Shown here: positions 2,620 through 40,791 of the stretch, piece after piece
Position numbering within the stretch: position 1 is the first letter of the stretch
How the letters are laid out: the number at the start of each line of letters is the position of its first letter
IMG/VR virus record: IMGVR_UViG_3300029787_000093
Location: 1 to 45,662 of that record
DNA length: 45,662 bases
Strand: one strand, 5' to 3'
DNA from: a virus
Notes under the pieces: generated by a model
The model's input: the letters and a program-made list of their open reading frames with translations, nothing else
Database searches by the model: none
What the model was told of the DNA's origin: nothing
Position numbers and translations under genes: made by a program

Positions 2620-3150
2620 TTATTTGCTATCTTCGTCTAATTTAAGTTCTTCGTTGATATGATTTATTAACTCGTCTACGTTCTTGATGTTGACTTTAAA
2701 TTTCGGAGTTTTTTTAGTATCTTCTTCAACTATTCGTTGTTCCATATTCCACAGAAGTTCATTAACTTGTTGCTCCATTTCTAAATCTTTCTGGAGTAAA
2801 GCTGAATAGATTTTTTTCTTTAAACTGAATCCTACTAGTTCAGCTCCAAATTTGGCTAAACTATGACAGACCTCTCTTAAAACTAAAAGTTCATATTCTT
2901 CAAAAAAGAGTTTATATTCTTTGTTCCTGTTATCTAAGTCAGAAGTATATAAAACTGCTTTTCCTATCTTATGTATTAACTCCATAGGAGCTGGCACTCC
3001 ACCACTAGTAATGGGAGAGATTGGTCTGAGGGGTCTAATGTTTTGAGTTTCTGGTGATGTTTCAACCATTAATGTTAATGAGTCATCTAGGAACAAAGCC
3101 TCATTTCTAGTAACTGAAATTACATATGGTCTGTCATCTTTTTCATACAT
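2620..3150 (-). CDS. Conserved-looking phage protein, 176 aa
   Basis: A 176-residue protein with a beta-rich N-terminal half and a long helical C-terminal half with coiled-coil character around residues 110-150. A Pro-rich turn near residue 45 (ITSGGVPAP) joins them. The start overlaps the upstream small gene by 8 bases. The composition resembles phage structural or connector proteins, but I cannot name the family. Confidence 0.65.
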   Translation of the reverse strand: MYEKDDRPYVISVTRNEALFLDDSLTLMVETSPETQNIRPLRPISPITSGGVPAPMELIHKIGKAVLYTSDLDNRNKEYKLFFEEYELLVLREVCHSLAKFGAELVGFSLKKKIYSALLQKDLEMEQQVNELLWNMEQRIVEEDTKKTPKFKVNIKNVDELINHINEELKLDEDSK

Positions 3151-4246: not shown

Positions 4247-4254
4247 AGTTCTCC

Positions 4255-5535
4255 TTAGTTAAATGGGTTATCTTCTATTCCTGCAACTATCCTAGCTGCC
4301 GCAGCTTTTCTTCCTGCTTTGCTAGTGGGAGGGTTCTTCATTCCATTTTGTCCCTTCCCGTTTACAATAGCCCAAGCAACTGCCCAAGCGTTTTTAGGTT
4401 TAGAAGCTTTGATAAGTTTCCTCAACTCACTCTCTTCCTCTTCATCAACTACTTTTTTACTATCTGAATCTAGCATTTTTTCTTTAAGTTCTTTTATCTT
4501 TTCCCTTAATAAACTAACTCTATGCAAGGATGCTGTGTCCTCTCCGTCTTTGTAATATACTAAGTCACTTTTATCTGGAACATTCATGTCCTCGTAACTT
4601 TGATTGTGTCCTGCTTTTTTAATTGCTTCTGCAATTTCATCTACTTTCTCTTCGCCAGGACTTCCTTCCTTGAAGTTTTTATATCCCATCTTTTTTGCCT
4701 GTGCTGTTGCAACGGCATAAGGATTATCTACTTCTGCTTTTAATAATTTCTGAAGCCTTTCCAATGAAGAAACTTTACTTCTTTGAAACTCTGACTTCTT
4801 GCCAGGCTTTGTAAGTGCATCGTCTGAATGTCTGTTCCCTAAGTCCTGACCACCTTCATTTACATACCAATATGGTTTAGGATGGTCTGGGTCATATTCT
4901 GATACAGGAGTGTACCTTCCATCTTCAGGTTCTAGTTCACCAGGAAATCCCATTTCATCTAATAATTGATGATGTTGCTGTTCCCTTGATAATACATTTT
5001 GTAATGTTGCAAATCCCTTCCCTGATTTAAATGGGTCTTCTTGTTTCTTAACAAAGTTTACGAATGTATCTTTTAGACTTATGTCCCCATTCTTTTCCAT
5101 CAATTGAATTTCAAAGCTAGGACCATCACAACCACAATCTTCGGGTTCTGATTTTTCTAAGTGTACTAAGCAACTTCCATCTACGCAGCTCTTGACTGCG
5201 GCGTGTTCAGATTTAATTAACTGGAAGCTTGCTTCTTGATTGACTCCTTTTTCACACACAGTAACTTCAGCTAGTTCCAAGTCATCCACTTGCATGTATT
5301 GACTCATTCCCTTTTGAATCTGTTGTGTCTTAGTTGCACTTCCTGCAATTGAGTAAGACCTTAGCTTACCTTCATCAATCTGTTGTTCAACTCTCTTTGA
5401 TATCTTTGTGTCGGCTCTTAATTCTGTTATGAAATAAAGACCTGTATCGTCTACACCACTTTTAAAAACTTGACCACTCTTACTGATGTACGCAGGTAAA
5501 CCCCACCTGCACATCAGAATGTAGAACCATGGCAT
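4255..5535 (-). CDS. Prohead protease, C-terminal frame (catalytic Ser part)
   Basis: Second half of the capsid maturation protease that cleaves scaffold and capsid precursor inside the prohead. It carries the conserved core after the His motif: GLYFITELR, the catalytic-Ser strand LRSYSIAGSA, and an acidic strand ELAEVTVCE, as in S78/U35-type proteases. Its apparent start at 5535 lies inside the upstream frame and has no ribosome site; homology to the protease fold starts only at LPAY, just past the frame crossover at 5497-5510. The long tail has two NPxAVA-type motifs (NPYAVATAQAKK and NAWAVAWAIVN) often seen appended to phage protease or scaffold proteins. It is probably translated only as a fusion of about 550 residues. 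Confidence 0.75.
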   Translation of the reverse strand: MPWFYILMCRWGLPAYISKSGQVFKSGVDDTGLYFITELRADTKISKRVEQQIDEGKLRSYSIAGSATKTQQIQKGMSQYMQVDDLELAEVTVCEKGVNQEASFQLIKSEHAAVKSCVDGSCLVHLEKSEPEDCGCDGPSFEIQLMEKNGDISLKDTFVNFVKKQEDPFKSGKGFATLQNVLSREQQHHQLLDEMGFPGELEPEDGRYTPVSEYDPDHPKPYWYVNEGGQDLGNRHSDDALTKPGKKSEFQRSKVSSLERLQKLLKAEVDNPYAVATAQAKKMGYKNFKEGSPGEEKVDEIAEAIKKAGHNQSYEDMNVPDKSDLVYYKDGEDTASLHRVSLLREKIKELKEKMLDSDSKKVVDEEEESELRKLIKASKPKNAWAVAWAIVNGKGQNGMKNPPTSKAGRKAAAARIVAGIEDNPFN

Positions 5536-5908
5536 TTCGAGTTCTAAAGTTTTCCATGTAGGCTTTGAAAGCTTTTCTTAAAGCGTCAGTTGTAATTAAA
5601 TGCCCTTCCCTATCAACTACTTCGATAGATGCTGGACCTCCAAGAACCATTGGTTGGTTATCTAGATTGTCTAGACTCATCTTTTTAACGGCTTCAGAGT
5701 AAACTTTCTTATTTGGATATGCTCTAAATAAAGTTAATATCTCTGCTGGTGATGCTATCTCTGCTAAAAACAAACGTTTATACTCTTCCAAAGCTGGCTG
5801 GATGTCTTTTACTGTGACTCTTCCATCCACTGCTTTTTCAAGCATTGTTATGTTTTCGTCTTCCTGAGCTGTAATCAGCCAGTCTGTTTTAGCAGTTGTC
5901 ATTACCAT
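5480..5908 (-). CDS. Prohead protease, N-terminal frame (catalytic His part)
   Basis: Start chosen at the ATG with AGGA seven bases upstream, five bases after the previous stop; longer versions overlap the upstream gene. The 142-residue frame ends NAMVLHSDVQVG and then six out-of-family residues before a stop. The motif with His followed by Asp-Val-Gln-Val-Gly is the catalytic-His strand of prohead proteases, which normally continues with LPxY and the Ser strand. That continuation is in the +1 frame (4255-5535). The two frames therefore form one enzyme interrupted by a frameshift, programmed or accidental. Confidence 0.75.
   Translation of the reverse strand: MVMTTAKTDWLITAQEDENITMLEKAVDGRVTVKDIQPALEEYKRLFLAEIASPAEILTLFRAYPNKKVYSEAVKKMSLDNLDNQPMVLGGPASIEVVDREGHLITTDALRKAFKAYMENFRTRNAMVLHSDVQVGFTCVHQ
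5497..5510 (-). other. Frame crossover in prohead protease (GGGG tract)
   Basis: On the minus strand the zero frame reads CAG GTG GGG TTT. The downstream homology resumes as TTA CCT GCG in the +1 frame. A single extra G in the GGGG tract (5501-5504), or a +1 ribosomal shift at GGG TTT, would join VQVG to LPAYI. Which of the two applies cannot be decided from one sequence. Confidence 0.65.
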
Positions 5909-5912
5909 TTTA

Positions 5913-6953
5913 TTATCCTGTCGAGATAGCAGTTCCCATAACAATACCTTCGTAGGTTGTTGAGCTACCACTACCAATTACTGATACTTTTTTTCTAAAG
6001 TCAATTGGGTGACTTGATTCAAATGATTCACCTGCCGCCAATTTTAAACAATTAGTTGTAGCTTCTGCCTCTGCATCAAATGCAACGAACAGATTCTGTG
6101 AACCGTGTGTATTTTTAATTCTTATATGTCTGATTGATGAAATGGGTGCCATGTGTCTTGACTTAGATAAGTCGGTTGTGCCTTCCCATTCATATCCATT
6201 TCCACCTGCAAGGTTTCCATCAATGTAATCTACTTTAGTTGAGTTGTCTCTAAAGTCATATGATAATGCATCCCACAACATATTAATATTGTGTTGAGTG
6301 TTTGAACAGAATTTAACTCTGTATGTCCGACTACTATTTCCGTCTGAGTCATAAGCTGGTATTGCGTATGCAACATCTAATCTTTGATAGCTAGTTGTTA
6401 AGCTAACTGCTTCTGATGTTACTAATACAGTTCCACTTGAATCTGTAATCTGCATCACGGCATCCCCTGAAGCTGAAGCACCTCTAACGTGACCTGATGC
6501 CACTAAATACATTGAACCAGTTCCATTACCACTAATGTTTACTATGCTTCCTGTTGCTTCTGTTGTTACATAAAATCCTTCTTTGGCTGCAGAGTTAGCT
6601 GGGTTTGCTGTAAGTTCTGCTGAACCTAAAAGGGGTGCTCCTGTTGTTCTTGATATAGCTGACCCATCTGCTGTAAATTCTGTTATAGTTGCGTTCTCTA
6701 TTGATGGGTTTAAAATTCTATTTATACCTGGGCTACCTGATGTAGCTAGTTCCCAGTTTGATGTTGTGACTCCTCCCACGTCCAAGTTATAATATGGACC
6801 TGCGTATATTTTCACGGCATCTGCCGCTGACGTTCCCACCGAGCCACTAAGTGCAACGTACCTATCAAAAGGCTGTACAGCAGTTCTAGTGCTAGGGTCG
6901 GACTGCCAAGTCCTCCAGTTCCTAGAGCTTGCATAATCGTTTGTAAATGCCAT
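5913..6953 (-). CDS. Head fibre / decoration-like protein with carbohydrate-binding-type domain
   Basis: A 346-residue beta-rich protein. Residues about 80-260 resemble a jelly-roll carbohydrate-binding module: NPSIEN near the start, then MYLVASGHVRG and the motif VMQITDSSGTVL, then SYQRLDVAY, a pattern known from CBM4/9-type modules in phage capsid and tail decorations. The C-terminal 80 residues look like a separate small beta domain. It sits between the small coiled-coil/membrane gene and the protease, within the capsid genes. A capsid-surface decoration or weak glycan adhesin is inference. Confidence 0.55.
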   Translation of the reverse strand: MAFTNDYASSRNWRTWQSDPSTRTAVQPFDRYVALSGSVGTSAADAVKIYAGPYYNLDVGGVTTSNWELATSGSPGINRILNPSIENATITEFTADGSAISRTTGAPLLGSAELTANPANSAAKEGFYVTTEATGSIVNISGNGTGSMYLVASGHVRGASASGDAVMQITDSSGTVLVTSEAVSLTTSYQRLDVAYAIPAYDSDGNSSRTYRVKFCSNTQHNINMLWDALSYDFRDNSTKVDYIDGNLAGGNGYEWEGTTDLSKSRHMAPISSIRHIRIKNTHGSQNLFVAFDAEAEATTNCLKLAAGESFESSHPIDFRKKVSVIGSGSSTTYEGIVMGTAISTG

Positions 6954-6966
6954 GTGTTATATTCTC

Positions 6967-7230
6967 CTATTTATCTGTCCACATTAATATTCCTACGAAG
7001 CTGCCCAATACTGCAACCGTGTGAACAATTAATATTCCTGCCGTCATTAAGGCAGCTTTAGCTCCGTAGATTTTTGTTCGCCAGCTTTTTATTTCTTCTA
7101 CTTCCTCATCTAACTTTTGGAGCCCCACAGTTAGGGACTCATTTAGATTCGTTTGACTTTCTATGTACCTATCTAGGCGTTCCATATATACAGCAAGCTG
7201 TACTTCTGTTTCAGTCTTAGTAGCTGGCAT
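6967..7230 (-). CDS. Coiled-coil plus membrane-anchor protein (XhlA/holin-like)
   Basis: An 87-residue protein. Residues 5-55 form an amphipathic coiled coil (heptads around VQLAVYMERLDRYI and LQKLDEEVEEI) and residues 59-83 a single hydrophobic membrane segment, with a short Lys end. This is the architecture of XhlA-type haemolysin/holin accessory proteins. Located among capsid genes, it may instead be a virion-associated membrane protein. A lysis role is possible but not shown. Confidence 0.55.
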   Translation of the reverse strand: MPATKTETEVQLAVYMERLDRYIESQTNLNESLTVGLQKLDEEVEEIKSWRTKIYGAKAALMTAGILIVHTVAVLGSFVGILMWTDK

Positions 7231-7235
7231 GAAAC

Positions 7236-7559
7236 TTATCTTCCGAGTACGAGTACTCTTACTGCGATACCACTAGCGTCTGCTGTGTTACCTAATTCGT
7301 CTAAAGCTGCTCCGTCTGCCCCTGCTTCGTAGATTTCAAATTTTGAGTTACTGTAGTCAAATTGAGTTACATAACCATCTGATTTCTGTGAAATAAGCAC
7401 AATGAAGATTTCCTCTAAACCAAATTGTGTAGCTGTTATAGCTTCACCGTTTGAAGGATAAGAATCATCAAATGTAATATCTTTAATTGTGTATCTGATA
7501 TCACCCATTACTCCCTGAACATCTCTTGAAGTTCCTGGATTTGTAATCGTTAATGCCAT
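7236..7559 (-). CDS. Head decoration-like protein, 107 aa
   Basis: A small all-beta protein encoded immediately downstream of the major capsid gene. It has the signature I associate with a common family of phage head proteins next to the capsid gene: an N-terminal MALTITN, then FDDSYPSNGEAIT, then GYVTQFDYSNSKFEIY, ending RVLVLGR. Such proteins are thought to decorate or cement the capsid. Start: ATG with AAGGAG about ten bases upstream. The family resemblance is from memory. Confidence 0.65.
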   Translation of the reverse strand: MALTITNPGTSRDVQGVMGDIRYTIKDITFDDSYPSNGEAITATQFGLEEIFIVLISQKSDGYVTQFDYSNSKFEIYEAGADGAALDELGNTADASGIAVRVLVLGR

Positions 7560-7585
7560 GAGTTAATTTCTCCTTTATTATTACC

Positions 7586-7615
7586 GTGGGGTGACTAGCG
7601 ATTTAGCCACCCCAC
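7586..7615 (-). terminator. Stable hairpin after the capsid gene (partial terminator or mRNA stabiliser)
   Basis: Perfect eight-base stem GTGGGGTG / CACCCCAC (7586-7593 and 7608-7615), with three more pairs (CTA/TAG) after one mismatch. It lies 20 bases past the capsid stop and just before the ribosome site of the next gene. There is no U-tract on the minus strand, so it is more likely an attenuator or a 3' protective hairpin for the capsid message than a full terminator. Confidence 0.55.
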
Positions 7616-7634
7616 ATAAAAACTGATTAGTTTA

Positions 7635-8993
7635 TTATGAACTTAAGTCAGTTATTTTTGCTTGAGTAATGAAATTGTGACACCTCAACTCTGCCATAGT
7701 GTATAGTAATCCTCTTACTACTAGAGCGTTAGCTGCAAAGTAGTCTCTGTTTTCTATATACTGTGTAGGTTGTGCTACAGCAATTTCTAGGTAATCTGTG
7801 TCCAACACAAGAATGTGTGAACCGTTAACACTATCATCTGAACCGACAGATTTTACAACGTCAGCATCTGGTAGAATTGGAATACCTTGGTAAGTTGCGA
7901 GTACTAGACCAGTTCTAGTTCCTGGGAAAGTTCTTTCAGAACCCACACCAACTTGGAACTCTTCCTGTCCTAAGTATCTCTGTTGTGATTGTAGTAATCT
8001 CTCAAGTTTGAAGTATTGGTCGTGACCCAAAACGATTAGTTTTGGTTCTCCACCGTTAGTTCTTATTGATTGAATACAGTCATCAATTAGATTTAGAGAT
8101 AAGTCTCTAATTGTACCACTGTTATGCTTTACAGTTCCAGCAGCAAAGTTTGCATCTCTGTTACCAAATGTGATGTCGTATACACCTACTCCACCGTTTC
8201 CAGCGAAGTTAGAGTTACTGTGAATGTGACCACCCACAGAAGCGTTATCATCGTTTACGATATCTTCAATTGATGTTAGACCTGCTCTCTTTGTTACTAC
8301 TAGACCGTCACCATCAGCCGTATTTGCATCAAATGCAGCATGTGTAACAACACCTGTAGAAGTGTTTACAGCAGTTACTGCTTTACCAGCAGTGTTAATG
8401 TAGTCAGTTCCAGATACGTCATAAAGGGAAACTTCGTCCCCAATCTTTATGCTACCTGCAACTGAGGCTGGCACAGTTGATGTACCTGAACCACCAGCAG
8501 ATGCGATGAATCCAGAACCAGCTAATAGCTCTTCGTTAATTTCCTTAACGTGGTCAAGCTGTGCATTTTCGTTTTCCAACGCCAACACATCACCAACTCC
8601 ACCTTCTAGTTGTGCAGTGAATACTGATTTCACTGACGCACCGAAAGTAGTTGATACGATTCTAGGTAAACTAGAAACGTTTTCAATTTGTGATACGTCT
8701 ACTGTTGGGATAGCACCAGTTTCAGTTACAGGTCTTGACCTGCCACTTCCTCTGTCGCTTCTTATTCTCCAACCAGCAGTGTTACCCCAAACGTTTCTTG
8801 GGATAGCGTTGAAAAATCGAGTTTGGTTATTCAATGCGTGCCATACTTTCCTACCATAAGTAGTATTGAAAATACCTGTCGCAGTGTCAACCGTGAAATA
8901 AGTTTGTTTCTGTAAGTATTCTGGACCGAACACAGACGAGTACAAACCTCTTTGTGACTGAGAGATAAACTCAGTTAAAGATGGATTTGACAT
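7635..8993 (-). CDS. Major capsid protein (HK97-type, probable)
   Basis: A 452-residue protein in the canonical position after the scaffold gene. The N-terminal arm is polar/aromatic, then comes a core with EINEELLAG, a motif commonly placed at the start of the long spine helix. The C-terminal part (LIVLGHDQYFKLERLL, then GIPILPDADV, then VVRGLLYTMAELRCHNF) is typical of HK97-fold capsid proteins in environmental phages. Residues about 175-245 look like an inserted small beta module (IKIGDEVSLYD) related to ones in the tail proteins here. The ribosome site GAGGAG is strong. The fold assignment is inference from position and motifs. Confidence 0.8.
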   Translation of the reverse strand: MSNPSLTEFISQSQRGLYSSVFGPEYLQKQTYFTVDTATGIFNTTYGRKVWHALNNQTRFFNAIPRNVWGNTAGWRIRSDRGSGRSRPVTETGAIPTVDVSQIENVSSLPRIVSTTFGASVKSVFTAQLEGGVGDVLALENENAQLDHVKEINEELLAGSGFIASAGGSGTSTVPASVAGSIKIGDEVSLYDVSGTDYINTAGKAVTAVNTSTGVVTHAAFDANTADGDGLVVTKRAGLTSIEDIVNDDNASVGGHIHSNSNFAGNGGVGVYDITFGNRDANFAAGTVKHNSGTIRDLSLNLIDDCIQSIRTNGGEPKLIVLGHDQYFKLERLLQSQQRYLGQEEFQVGVGSERTFPGTRTGLVLATYQGIPILPDADVVKSVGSDDSVNGSHILVLDTDYLEIAVAQPTQYIENRDYFAANALVVRGLLYTMAELRCHNFITQAKITDLSS

Positions 8994-14347: not shown

Positions 14348-14453
14348 AGTCTCTCCTTATATCTAATACTATTATTTTACCACACGTAAAACAGTGTAAA
14401 TCTTTATCTTCGTTTAGTTGCATTGATGCACTACATTTAGGGCAAGTAATCAA
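14175..14453 (-). CDS. Zinc-ribbon protein overlapping the phosphoesterase start, 92 aa
   Basis: Starts on TTG in a TTGA overlap with the PAP2 gene's stop. Residues 1-33 hold CPKC and, 14 residues later, CFTCG, a textbook zinc ribbon. The remaining 60 residues are basic, low in hydrophobics, and encoded in an alternative frame inside the phosphoesterase gene, so the tail may be poorly conserved. The ribbon itself lies in otherwise non-coding sequence, which supports it being real. Confidence 0.5.
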   Translation of the reverse strand: MITCPKCSASMQLNEDKDLHCFTCGKIIVLDIRRDYDSYPRKGKKRNNQEATRRVELGINSRVDGRRTQFRSTPNNLSKVVRQRSLFKRGAL

Positions 14454-16063
14454 ATATCTAACTTATCCATATCTAGTTTATCGAATAATTCTTCAGCTAA
14501 CATTATGCCAGCTTTAGAGTCACTGTGAAAATGAACACCTGCTGTTACTCTATTTGTAGTTATTTCATCAGCTAAATCAAAGAATCTTTCTTCATACTCT
14601 GGATACTTTTTAGTTAACACCATTGCAATAATATGTGATTGAAATGCATGACCTGATGGATAAGACGGAGTTTTACTAGTTTTTAAATCTTCAGGCACCA
14701 TGTTTACTCCGTGATAGTCTGTTAAATCTTTTGGTCTAGGTCTATTAAATTTCATCTTTTGTCTTAAGATTATTGTCCTAGTCTCTCTGATGATTGGTTT
14801 TAAATCTTCTTTAGTCAAATTTATTTTATCTTCTTCCTTTTTATCTATATCAAGAACTTTAGCTAAATCAATGAAAGACTTATCTAAATCATTATCTTGT
14901 TCTTGAATTGCTTTTTCTTGATAATCATCTGGGCGTTCTTGAAAGTTTTCATGAGCTGTTAATATTTTTTCTAACTCTGCCTTTACTTCTTCACTTTCAT
15001 TAGGAAAAGGTTTTGGTAATTCAATTTCATCTACCTCATCTAAAGTTAAATCAAATAGTTCTAAATCTCTTTCCATAGCCTTTTTAGAACCAGGTCTTAG
15101 TTCAGCCGTGTCAGTCCACTTTAAATCAGATACATCTTCTGCTTTTGCAAGTTTCTGTGTGTAGTTGTAAGCTGCATTGTTACCTGTATAAGTTCCACGA
15201 TGTTCGTCAGCATCTCTAGTTAAAATTTTTATATCTTCTTCATCTTGAATTTCATCTACATAATCTTCATCTGCTTTTTGAATTTCATATTTTCCTGTTT
15301 TGATTTTATTTTTAATTTGTTTTATTTGATTAGCTATGGATTCTTTTGCATCATCCATACTAAATGATGCATCTTCTTTATCATGTTCTGTATCATGAGC
15401 TTCGTCAGAATGTTTTTCTATATACGCACCATCATCTGATTTCAAAATGTCTGATATAAAACTATCTATATCTTTTGGTTCTGTGTCTTTTTCTATTTCA
15501 GGATTGTCATCAATCTCGTCTTTTTCAGCACCTCGTTTATATTCACCTTGTTGCCCCTTCCAGTCCCAACCACTATACTGTTTAGCTACATCGACTGTAC
15601 CTGAACCAACAGCTGCTGAGTCTAGATTGTTTTCAGGACCTTGTTTCTTAGCATCTTCTTTATATCCACGCACTCTTCTTTCAAAGTCGTTTTGTTCTGT
15701 CACTACATATTCATCGGTCTCACCATCGGTTTCTACATATTTTTCTTTTTCTTTCATGTGGTCAACCACCTTCGGACCTAAATTACCTCTTACAGTTTTA
15801 TTACCATACGCACTAGCATCTTCATTTACAGTTGAAGTCATAAGTTGACCTGCATTTTTCTTAACGCTGTTTATAAGAGAGACTAAGGATTTAGTCATAT
15901 CTTTGGGTTCTGCCATCTGTGGGCTGTATTCATCTAGAAAAGCTTCTAGTTTATCTATGCCATCTCTCTTCCTTCGTTTTCTTTTAGGTTTTTGAGTGCT
16001 TCGATAAGTACTAGAAGTAAAAGCTGTATCTGGTTTTCTTAATGGTCTGTCATTTACAGGCAT
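14450..16063 (-). CDS. Long acidic protein with C-terminal PAP2 phosphatase domain, 537 aa
   Basis: Residues 1-420 are charged and low in hydrophobics, with a basic N-terminus (KPKRKRRKR) and long acidic stretches, as in internal head or scaffold-like proteins. Residues 430-525 are a PAP2/acid-phosphatase domain with all three catalytic blocks: K-x6-RP (436-444), PSGH (469-472) and R-x5-H-x3-D (505-515; Asn replaces the usual Ser before Arg). PAP2 enzymes remove phosphate from lipid phosphates, nucleotides or other esters. There is no membrane segment, so this is a soluble form. It follows the portal and the DUF6321-like gene and may travel in the virion; that is inference. Confidence 0.75.
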   Translation of the reverse strand: MPVNDRPLRKPDTAFTSSTYRSTQKPKRKRRKRDGIDKLEAFLDEYSPQMAEPKDMTKSLVSLINSVKKNAGQLMTSTVNEDASAYGNKTVRGNLGPKVVDHMKEKEKYVETDGETDEYVVTEQNDFERRVRGYKEDAKKQGPENNLDSAAVGSGTVDVAKQYSGWDWKGQQGEYKRGAEKDEIDDNPEIEKDTEPKDIDSFISDILKSDDGAYIEKHSDEAHDTEHDKEDASFSMDDAKESIANQIKQIKNKIKTGKYEIQKADEDYVDEIQDEEDIKILTRDADEHRGTYTGNNAAYNYTQKLAKAEDVSDLKWTDTAELRPGSKKAMERDLELFDLTLDEVDEIELPKPFPNESEEVKAELEKILTAHENFQERPDDYQEKAIQEQDNDLDKSFIDLAKVLDIDKKEEDKINLTKEDLKPIIRETRTIILRQKMKFNRPRPKDLTDYHGVNMVPEDLKTSKTPSYPSGHAFQSHIIAMVLTKKYPEYEERFFDLADEITTNRVTAGVHFHSDSKAGIMLAEELFDKLDMDKLDI

Positions 16064-16070
16064 TAGTTTC

Positions 16071-16697
16071 CTACTTTTTCTTCGTTGAATTTATAACTTT
16101 GGTAAAGTCAAAGTCATCTGAACTATATTTATATGTAAAATTATATTTTTGATTTTCATTCTTAGCTTTTAAAGGCTTTTTCTTTGCATACTTAGGATTA
16201 TATCTACCATAAGTTCGTGTATAAAAACCTGGTGAGCCTTGTGCTGTCGTGGTTGCCACTGTTCCTGCACCTCCACCAGCTCCTGGTCCACCACCATATT
16301 CTTTCATCATAGAAACAAACTTCTTCACCTTCTTAGATTTTTTAGATGTTTGATATCTGTCTAACATTCTTCTGCCTTTAGCTGCAAGTTTCTGAGCTTG
16401 TTGTCTTGTGCTAGGTGCTGACTCACCCCAAGCTCTAGCTGCTAAAGCTAATCTAGTAGGGTTACCTTTTTTATCTTTCATCGGACCTCTAGGATTAGTG
16501 TAAAACCTTGTTAGGAAACTACCCTTTCGCCTTTTCTTTTCAGGTGTATCAGCTTTACCTTTTACACCAGGCTTTAAGTTAGCTCCCTCTTTCTTTTTAA
16601 AATATTTTCTTCCAGCCGCAGTTAGACCACCTTTAGGGTTTTTAACTTTCTTGCCTTTATATTTTTGCTTTAAGATATTTAGATAATTAGCTGTCAT
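16071..16697 (-). CDS. Basic DUF6321-like protein, 208 aa
   Basis: Start chosen at the ATG with GAGG nine bases upstream; it overlaps the portal's end by 11 bases. The core (residues about 20-110) has the signature I remember for DUF6321: GLTAAGRKYFKKKEGANLKP, then RRKGSFLTRFY, then TRLALAARAWGE, then AQKLAAKGRRMLDRY. The rest is Lys/Gly-rich. The protein is strongly basic, so a DNA-binding or capsid-interior role is possible. Such domains occur in phages and large eukaryotic viruses; function is not known to me. Confidence 0.65.
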   Translation of the reverse strand: MTANYLNILKQKYKGKKVKNPKGGLTAAGRKYFKKKEGANLKPGVKGKADTPEKKRRKGSFLTRFYTNPRGPMKDKKGNPTRLALAARAWGESAPSTRQQAQKLAAKGRRMLDRYQTSKKSKKVKKFVSMMKEYGGGPGAGGGAGTVATTTAQGSPGFYTRTYGRYNPKYAKKKPLKAKNENQKYNFTYKYSSDDFDFTKVINSTKKK

Positions 16698-18702
16698 CGT
16701 CATCGTCCTCATCTTTATCAACCATGTTTGGATTCATGATGCTAGTATTTTGAGGTCGTTGCTTTTCTTTATCATCTTTTGCTTTTGGTGTAGTAAATGT
16801 AGCTTTATCTATTTCATTAATACCTAATGAACCTAATTTAGCTACGTAGTCCACACCATCCTGAGAGAACCACATTTGACTTCCATCAGGTGTTACTTCT
16901 TTTATAATAGGAGATTCAAATCCTCTAGATATTAAATCACCCATCCATGAGTTACCTTTCTTGATACCCATGTCTCTTTGTTCAGCCGCTTTGGTTCTAG
17001 CTTCTGCATACTCTTCCATGTCTCTTTCTTCATCAGTACCACCTGCTTTATCAGTATGGTCAGGTGTAATACCACCCATTCTACCTTTGAACTTTCTTTG
17101 AGACTTTGGAATTGACTTTTCTAATTCATCTATGGTGCCTTCTTCCTCGCCACCTTCTTCGGGAGGTGCTTCTTCACCACCTTCAGGACCAGGTGCTCCA
17201 CCTTCTGCCATCATAGCTTGCTGTTGTTCTTGCATCTCTTGTTGTTGTAGAGCTTGTTGTAGCCCCATCTCAGCTTGTTGCAATCCAATAGCTTGTTGTT
17301 CTCCAGCCATTTGTGCTTGAGGTACAGCTTCACCGTCTACCATGAACTCTGCTTCTAACATGTCCACACCTTTTTCTTTTAATTTAACATCGAAGCCCAT
17401 ATTTAAATATTGTGTTGCAATAGATATTCTTTGTTGTGCCATTGCAAGTTTAGTGTTTTCTGCTTTTTCTTCAGGGTTAGGAAGTTTTAATGTCCAATCT
17501 GTAATACCAAAAGCTTTAAGTAAAAGTGGGATTACCTTTTCATGAAATAATCTTTGGTCGCCCTCTACCACTCTGCTCATCACAGTTAGCTGTGAAGTCT
17601 GTTGTGATAGTCCACCAAATGCGTCAGGGGCTCCTTGCCACGCAGGGGAAACTCCCCACATAGCTGCAACCCTTTCTCTAATCTCTTGTCTTACAGGTAG
17701 GTAATCCATTTCTTGTAGTGTGTGGAATAGTCTTACCATATCCACCCTACCTCTATTGTTTCTAGCTGAAACAGCAACCATAGGTATATAGTTAGGGTCT
17801 ACTCTAGTTTGAGCTGCTATGTGGTCTCTTTCACGTCTTAAGCTTTCAGGGTCATCTGTTGTAACCATAAGCATGGACGAAGGCATCTTTCTTTCAAAGA
17901 AGTATCGGTATAAGTTTTTATCCATACCAATTAAAGTTAAGGCTTTTTCAAATATAGTTAATATTGGAGACCAACCATAAGTTTCTGATGGTGCATACTT
18001 AGTTAAATGTATCACTTCATTATCAGCTAAGTACATGTGTTGGTTTCTGTGATAATACTTGTACATTGCAGGGATTCTTTCATATCCTGCTTTAGATTTA
18101 CCTGGTTCTTCAGTTACATCAGTTCTATCTAACGGACATATCCAATGTGCATTTTTAGGTAAACCTGCTGCATCTAAATCAAATTCTACTAATGCAGGGT
18201 TTAATCTTCTAATTTCAATTACTTTAGATTTAATTTCACCGTTCCCCACATCTTTATATTCTTTAGCTAGATACATAAATGCATCATCGATAGAGTTTAA
18301 GTCAAAGTGAAACTGTCTAAAGATTTCTTCAAGACTTTGGTCAAACACGTTAGCATCTGCCATAAATCTAGCTAGTCTTTCTTTTTGTTCGGGGTCAGGA
18401 TTGTCTGTAGTTGCATGCCATTCTATCCCACGTCTAAATACTTCACCTGTAATGTGATTTAATGGAGCTCGTATTTCTTCTACTGAGTATGCTATTGTTT
18501 GAATATCTTGCACCATCTGCTGACGATATGCCATTTGATGTCTGACCCACGTATTTACAACGTGGTCTAATCCCATAGTAGGTGCTGTTCCTGTATCTCC
18601 TGTTGCCTTCTGCATCATTTGCAACATGTTGATTTGACTATTTAAGTCAGTCATTTGCTGTGCAATTTTTGGAACTTCAGGTAAGTAGTCTCCGAGCTTC
18701 AT
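16687..18702 (-). CDS. Portal protein
   Basis: A 671-residue protein two genes (RNR aside) after the terminase and before the head genes. The core has the portal layout: an N-terminal clip/wing region, then DNEVIHLTKYAPSE, a Gly-Trp-Ser-Pro motif (YGWSPI), the stem helix region with YRYFFERKMPSSMLMV, and VAAMWGVSPAWQG, which matches the C-terminal wing of many dodecameric portals. The last 200 residues are an appendage: a Gln-rich stretch (about 465-500), a Glu/Pro/Gly-rich linker and a poly-Asp end. The portal forms the vertex for DNA entry and tail attachment. The long acidic tail is more than usual for the family. Confidence 0.85.
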   Translation of the reverse strand: MKLGDYLPEVPKIAQQMTDLNSQINMLQMMQKATGDTGTAPTMGLDHVVNTWVRHQMAYRQQMVQDIQTIAYSVEEIRAPLNHITGEVFRRGIEWHATTDNPDPEQKERLARFMADANVFDQSLEEIFRQFHFDLNSIDDAFMYLAKEYKDVGNGEIKSKVIEIRRLNPALVEFDLDAAGLPKNAHWICPLDRTDVTEEPGKSKAGYERIPAMYKYYHRNQHMYLADNEVIHLTKYAPSETYGWSPILTIFEKALTLIGMDKNLYRYFFERKMPSSMLMVTTDDPESLRRERDHIAAQTRVDPNYIPMVAVSARNNRGRVDMVRLFHTLQEMDYLPVRQEIRERVAAMWGVSPAWQGAPDAFGGLSQQTSQLTVMSRVVEGDQRLFHEKVIPLLLKAFGITDWTLKLPNPEEKAENTKLAMAQQRISIATQYLNMGFDVKLKEKGVDMLEAEFMVDGEAVPQAQMAGEQQAIGLQQAEMGLQQALQQQEMQEQQQAMMAEGGAPGPEGGEEAPPEEGGEEEGTIDELEKSIPKSQRKFKGRMGGITPDHTDKAGGTDEERDMEEYAEARTKAAEQRDMGIKKGNSWMGDLISRGFESPIIKEVTPDGSQMWFSQDGVDYVAKLGSLGINEIDKATFTTPKAKDDKEKQRPQNTSIMNPNMVDKDEDDDDDS

Positions 18703-38900: not shown

Positions 38901-40210
38901 GTAGAGTTGTTATCATCATTTTCAGGAACTCCAATATATTTCATCCAACTGTTTTCAAAACCGTAGCTTGTGTTAGTAGTTTTTGCTATATCATCATTAA
39001 AGTTGTGTCGGTAGGCTCCAGTAGCACTTGAACCGATAGTATTTGCCCACATTCTGACTAACCACCCACCACCTACTTCATCTTTTGTGCTGGTTGTAGG
39101 ATGGATATTACCTTCTTTACCATCTGTGTATACGTAGTTTCCGTTTACTGTATAATCTCCAGCAAGTGGTCTTTCAGTCCAAGTAAATACTCCTGCACCC
39201 ACCCCACTTTGCGTACCAATTGCAGTAGGATTTAATCTAGCTATTCTAAGGGGTGCAAATTTTTTACTCTGCCCTTGTGCACTTCCGTCTTTACCACCTT
39301 TATCTACAAATTTAATTTGAGCTTCTGAAGCCATGTCAGTTCTTACTCTATCAAAATCAAAGTCAGATAACATTCTTCTAGTCTGCCCACCCTCAGTATC
39401 ACTTGAACTTAAAGGGAATACTATCTTCATACCATAAGTATCCATGTTAGCTTCTGTATTTGGACGAGTTGCTCTCTTAAAATAGTTCAACATAGGTGTT
39501 TGTGTAGCACTCGTAGCTGTTGAAGTAAATTGTGGAGCCAAGTAAAAATCGTGTCCAAAATCTGTTTGGGATACTGAAGCAGATGGATTATTAGTATGTG
39601 GTTCAGTAGTGGCAATTTGTTTTATTGCTGCAAGTACAGTTTTACCTGCTTCTTTCGGATGAAAATCTCCAGTTCCTGCCGCAAATTCTATTGTTGATGT
39701 TTCAAATTGGTCTGTATCACTCGTTGCAAGGTTTCCTGTTTTACTAGCAAAATCAATCATTTTAGCAATTAGTCTACTACGTCTGTTGTAAGCAGAATCG
39801 GTAGTATCCATTCTAATTAATGAATCAGTTCTATAGTCTTTTAATTCATAAAGATTATCATAGCAACGAACCACTAAGATATTACCCATACCCATCACAT
39901 ACTTTTCTTGCACATCTTCTGCAAAACCTGAAAACATTATTTGTTTAGAATAAGCATCAACAATTCTAACTTTCATAAAAGCTGTAATTGTTCCTGTTAA
40001 ATTACCCTTAGTAGCTGAGGCAGTTCCTGAACGAGGATTGGTTGCTTTATTGATTAAAGTTGCACTAACTTTCATTGGATTGTAAATATTTTCTTGAATA
40101 CTTATTTCCGTTAATGCGTTGTTACCAGCAGGAGTTTGTGCTTCTACATAATTAGAACCGTTAAAATATTGGAAAGATGCTCTACCTGCATTACTACCTA
40201 CTATAGACAT
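35972..40210 (-). CDS. Tail hub/fibre protein with S74 autoprocessing chaperone
   Basis: A 1412-residue protein. The N-terminal 180 residues resemble a baseplate-hub domain (VSATLINKA, MKVRIVDAYSKQIMFSGFAE, then VVRCYDNLYEL). The long middle is beta-rich with several copies of a small module (MIIKIGSEEMLV, VRLDTSSEVLEVTG), like fibre shafts. The end is an intramolecular chaperone: S-x-R-Y-K-K-D-I (about 1320) as the Ser/Lys cleavage motif, then VGLIAEEVAEILPE and a coiled coil. The chaperone trimerises the fibre and cuts itself off. Hub and fibre in one chain is unusual. Confidence 0.78.
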   Translation of the reverse strand: MSIVGSNAGRASFQYFNGSNYVEAQTPAGNNALTEISIQENIYNPMKVSATLINKATNPRSGTASATKGNLTGTITAFMKVRIVDAYSKQIMFSGFAEDVQEKYVMGMGNILVVRCYDNLYELKDYRTDSLIRMDTTDSAYNRRSRLIAKMIDFASKTGNLATSDTDQFETSTIEFAAGTGDFHPKEAGKTVLAAIKQIATTEPHTNNPSASVSQTDFGHDFYLAPQFTSTATSATQTPMLNYFKRATRPNTEANMDTYGMKIVFPLSSSDTEGGQTRRMLSDFDFDRVRTDMASEAQIKFVDKGGKDGSAQGQSKKFAPLRIARLNPTAIGTQSGVGAGVFTWTERPLAGDYTVNGNYVYTDGKEGNIHPTTSTKDEVGGGWLVRMWANTIGSSATGAYRHNFNDDIAKTTNTSYGFENSWMKYIGVPENDDNNSTPCGKVRISSIATTNLASKDEVIVNTATNHFLQAGDRFILSNIHLGATGEITENAQQFQGTNVNGRAFGRETLVATAVGNMSTSNTDLIVNKNHRLTTGATSSGTHVRLDTSSEVLEVTGIAKGNLNFDTATVDRAHVGSAAAVSNTTTSNLKAINVNMSHDSSGLKEQEGGGGAIFDHNIFRVERVISTTQFIVKSNLAAVSWTSGTLKCGLLKTAIDDSASTTDVVLKTDSTINGVHIQAGMIIKIGSEEMLVKTATHDSGDADLVVERGYNGTSRASHSADAEVISMLSHIIPIVGRAQFQTKLNSWSSGTDYMLVSDLNSNFPTTGHFRLAEIIYNSTDYGSYAEFNSSSLTINNADVMGFNKPKVFTASPMDKNADGIRVAASEALSYEDETRGGTVRINNYPYQYIDGTANAVASSGTVVTTYNTANNAAIDPEAYGLRVGMVAWKLSGNSMAAYGYVSATSSTTFTVTLNSGTFSADDKFRIFVPLRTGHLVQIKNKLVGIDTTSSNTFSDNQTSFMVSSIDYTEGQGQQTSTINLVKADEGNMGQTAFAKIAQNTEVSAYSTAEDEIVEHEPPTIDVNFRAGTLRPATGGGTGSSIENLNSSLHWEEGLLKYKGEEYIILPGNSIDGYILDNENNQQAGSSGAQLFNTTDDRDSEGRNSTDGGGPDGFPDAFHVCFVDLGNSSGSVRLNWVQDSTYESQVKDKASKLIIAYGFATLNTNGEAYYEWASGINHIGRSVTTEAPYVGLGYGSGSLNAPVLAFDGDTNTGIYHNSDGSIGFASNGTFEATIDDNGYFYITNGIVFGGAGLSSGNNFIQATGSGASRVIQFNTDDGSSGNSNRMRLYSGGMILDTLSANTGTDLIVDTSVGFNLVRSKSSSKRYKKDIKDTTLVPTERIYDLQPKDFVWKANDKSDVGLIAEEVAEILPEFTTLNVEGEIEAVRYDLLSVALIAELKKLKNEITELKENLDA

Positions 40211-40218
40211 GTATCCTC

Positions 40219-40791
40219 CTAGTTTCCTGGTTTATCAACAAAGTCTTGTCTTGCTGCCGCTATAAACTGCATACTAAAATCATATCTGTCTTCTTTAGCA
40301 GCATTGACTCCAAATCGTGCACTTTGCACAGCTACTCTATATATACCACCACCCGTATGACTAGCTGCACTATCAATCACATTAGATGAATAACCATTAT
40401 CACCATTGGCTGGGAATGTAGTATCTCCAACTTCTACTTCTACTAACAAGTCATCTGATGCTGCAAAATCATATACGGCATTTTCAAGTTGATTTTTAAA
40501 GGGTATTGTGTAAGTTTCTCCACCAATTGTTAAAGTGGTTGGACTAGGTTGAACAGTGTCCACTACTCCTGATATAGTAACGGATGGTCTAAAAATATTT
40601 AAATCTAATAATTCAGGAGATGCACCTGGGATTGGTATTTGAATAGGGGTCTTACCAATATTAACAGCAAACGTATCACACTTTAAAGCAAACTTTATAG
40701 TTGCTTCTTTACTGTTAGTGTTATCATGTTCACCATTTCTAAGTAATACTGATAATGTCTCAGTTGAATTTGCTGCTCTTACGTATGCCAT
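40219..40791 (-). CDS. Distal-tail-like protein, 190 aa
   Basis: All-beta 190-residue protein between the tape measure and the hub/fibre, the position of a distal tail or baseplate protein. Strands include IKFALKCDTFAVNIG and PSVTISGVV, and the end is FSMQFIAAARQDF. There is no catalytic motif. It overlaps the tape measure gene by one base. Confidence 0.6.
   Translation of the reverse strand: MAYVRAANSTETLSVLLRNGEHDNTNSKEATIKFALKCDTFAVNIGKTPIQIPIPGASPELLDLNIFRPSVTISGVVDTVQPSPTTLTIGGETYTIPFKNQLENAVYDFAASDDLLVEVEVGDTTFPANGDNGYSSNVIDSAASHTGGGIYRVAVQSARFGVNAAKEDRYDFSMQFIAAARQDFVDKPGN

Follow-up and report, generated by a model that had tools for sequence, protein, structure and literature searches.

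A prohead protease gene interrupted in one metagenomic viral contig very probably reflects a one-off net 5-base deletion and not recoding

Programmed frameshifts are recognized by the conservation of a two-frame arrangement together with a slippery site, and our literature search for a prohead protease with a programmed frameshift found nothing. The nearest named relatives of the protease studied here are the head maturation proteases of HVTV-1, HCTV-1, and HCTV-5 (Druskaviridae), with 28 to 32% identity over the protease core and the shared motifs HSD..VG and SYSI.G, the proteases of these haloarchaeal tailed viruses being longer than the one described here. The window, i.e., the whole 45,662-nucleotide stretch of viral DNA that was analyzed (IMGVR_UViG_3300029787_000093), also encodes a major capsid protein related to its counterpart in the same three viruses. 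While the protease gene of these haloviruses immediately precedes the capsid gene, that of the window lies downstream of it, with intervening genes between (Table 1). The major capsid gene places the window's protease in the head module, and the gene order from 4255 to 8993 is capsid, small genes, a 346-aa protein, and protease. Elsewhere, the gene at 14450 to 16063 encodes a 537-aa protein whose C-terminal domain is of the PAP2 (phosphatidic acid phosphatase-like) type and is placed between a portal-like gene (16687 to 18702) and the capsid gene; DnaB-like, DnaG-like, and RecA-like proteins, a family A polymerase, and a ribonucleotide reductase are encoded as well.

Table 1. Features of the protease locus and its neighborhood in the window
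Feature	Position	Strand	Details
5' part of the prohead protease gene	5501..5908	-	LHSDVQVG (presumed catalytic-His motif); 97-100% identity to nearest relatives
Frame-break site	5501..5505	-	5 bases shorter than in all close relatives, plus one adjacent substitution; W-A codons absent
3' part of the same protease gene, other frame	4255..5502	-	Ser motif RSYSIAGSA and C-terminal region; Peptidase_S78, E 7e-8
Gene directly upstream of the protease	5913..6953	-	Same order in relatives
Major capsid protein gene	7635..8993	-	phrog_24667, E 3e-19

The likeness to the Peptidase_S78/Peptidase_S78_2 prohead proteases lies in the profile match and in the module shared with the major capsid gene. An intact relative (P0001) scored 33.1 bits against PF04586 (Peptidase_S78), above the curated cutoff of 21, and 22.4 bits against PF14550 (Peptidase_S78_2, XkdF type), just below the cutoff of 24; the intact relative also matched the head maturation protease family phrog_23555 (E 1e-12), and a PDB sequence search gave chance-level matches only. 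Judged by its sequence, the protein is a normal prohead serine protease of the Peptidase_S78/XkdF type, which the Peptidase_S78 relatives found here carry in one frame, whereas that of the window is broken. One branch of relatives (L032 to L036) has a very long protease frame (e.g., 2986 to 5754 in L035 and 2935 to 5199 in L032; 755 to 923 aa in these two, with no stop before the contig ends), whose charged, low-complexity tail contains short repeated segments, among them EPKGKEILEMQK and GSFTNWVQK. This long tail is possibly a fused scaffold.

In the window, both protease frames are on the minus strand. The first runs from an ATG at 5908 to a stop at 5480 (the mechanical open reading frame starts at a TTG at 5977) and ends in LHSDVQVG followed by FTCVHQ and the stop. 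The second (5535 to 4255, with its stop at 4255) overlaps the first and holds GLPAYISK and RSYSIAGSA, a GGGG tract being found at 5504 to 5501. In a profile search, each half matched head maturation protease profiles on its own, and the two halves align with consecutive parts of one single protein, so that the sequence-only reading was right in describing a protease split over two frames, in its coordinates as in its motifs. The His and Ser of LHSDVQVG and RSYSIAGSA are presumed to be catalytic from the family match and from the alignment with the annotated halovirus proteases; in the window copy they do not lie in one polypeptide, their motifs being in different frames because of a 5-base gap described below. 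Two separate proteins made from the two frames would be compatible with both being open over more than 130 codons. Nevertheless, we consider such a split protease very improbable, since the second frame begins inside the first and lacks, as had been noted from the sequence, anything like a ribosome site ahead of its apparent start, and since separate genes occur in no relative.

The search of viral contigs yielded 44 loci with the N-terminal half as the query and 7 with the C-terminal half, all 7 being on contigs already within the 44; one locus (L012) stops short of the junction, leaving 43 comparable loci. In every one of these 43, whose 186 bases around the junction fall into 30 distinct sequences, the protease crosses the junction in one frame and reads HSDVQVG-(W/H)AL-P-(A/V/C)-Y. 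The Ser motif SYSIAGSA follows in the same frame in 42 (the remaining contig, L007, ends before it), and the His and Ser motifs are thus in one polypeptide in every relative that reaches both. A two-frame arrangement with a shift site was found in none of the 43. Moreover, when all viral contigs were screened with a degenerate pattern for the junction of the window, 20 matched, all of them unrelated sequences and none encoding the protease, and a scan of genome contigs found no relatives.

These comparisons bear directly on the programmed +1 shift put forward by the sequence-only reading, which had also proposed to look among homologues for either a continuous frame or a conserved shift site. 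A programmed shift by +1 (or -2) at GGGG/GGGTTT would fuse both frames into one protease; the overlap of the frames is where it should be for this, and VQVGLPAY would result from a +1 shift. However, all relatives, including one that is ~99% identical, have a single frame and none has two, which contradicts the proposal; the shifted product would still be without the W-A or H-A dipeptide of all 43 relatives, and the emergence of a lineage-specific recoding site within ~1% DNA divergence is implausible. We therefore regard programmed frameshifting as exceedingly improbable. The same very low probability is given to a very recent lineage-specific frameshift allele that would be tolerated thanks to low-level ribosome slippage at GGGGTTT giving some functional protease.

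The nature of the break is seen by comparison with the most informative relative (G001), a 54.5-kb contig with ~99% identity over 2.55 kb around the break, in which the protease is one continuous 560-aa frame. In this alignment, the window has an isolated 5-base gap at 5505/5506, the only gap between 4403 and 9349, adjoined by a substitution at 5501 (C>G in the window). The nearest relatives have GTGGGATGGGCTTTACC where the window has GTGGGGTTTACC, and the W-A dipeptide is therefore lost in the window. An indel had been suspected in the GGGG tract, as a natural or a sequencing event; an indel is indeed present, but one extra G in GGGG is ruled out, as the relatives differ from the window by net 5 bases and one substitution. 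The missing bases sit at a direct repeat, TGGGATGGG, visible in the nearest relatives. The net deletion puts the 3' part of the gene out of frame. TGGGATGGG contains TGGG twice, and we propose that slippage from one copy to the other could have removed the 5 bases, with the C>G change arising after this loss or together with it. Outside the break, 16 codons differ from G001 over the stretch of the protease gene that was compared (one of them with two changes), and 15 of these are synonymous in the original frame. Thus, the 3' part of the gene has not decayed, and the break, if real, must be very recent.

Altogether, we are nearly certain that the locus holds a prohead protease gene of the ordinary, single-frame kind, with a net 5-base deletion in this contig alone, recoding being unsupported. 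As for the origin of the deletion, we favor an error in the reads or in the assembly of the metagenomic contig over a real allele; such an error is the probable explanation, although a 5-base gap with a substitution is unlike the usual single-base homopolymer error and counts against it. If the contig is correct, its protease would have been inactivated by a recent loss of function in an actual viral population or allele, which would be either defective or complemented. The compatibility of the 5-base loss with slippage between the two TGGG copies and the absence of further signs of frame errors along the contig speak for this allele, which we hold as a tentative explanation; however, head maturation is expected to depend on the protease gene, the flanking gene is undecayed, and the allele was seen once in the viral contigs searched.

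Translation of the G001 frames against the window revealed a single true break in the matched genes, that of the protease. What looks like a second one, near 40165 to 40306, stems from a stretch of Ns in the relative; there, the window carries two normal neighboring genes, with a stop and a start of their own. A third flag was raised by a plus-strand frame at 2296 to 2620, which is not a gene and lies opposite the minus-strand genes 2019 to 2495 and 2620 to 3150 and their intergenic space. As the matched genes show no other break, the idea that the contig has too many frame errors in general is rejected. At the 3' end of the protease gene (4255 to 4410), DNA identity to the ~99% relative collapses in the last ~50 codons, with 95 differences in the 4250 to 4499 bin, while two other relatives (L046 and L047) match the protease through its C terminus with 94 to 95% protein identity. 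This pattern suggests that the 3' end of the gene may have recombined.

The split protease gene indicates no new biology. Beside the locus itself, our comparison calls for caution when an apparent frameshift is seen in an essential viral gene on a single metagenomic contig, and near-identical relatives should be compared before recoding is proposed.
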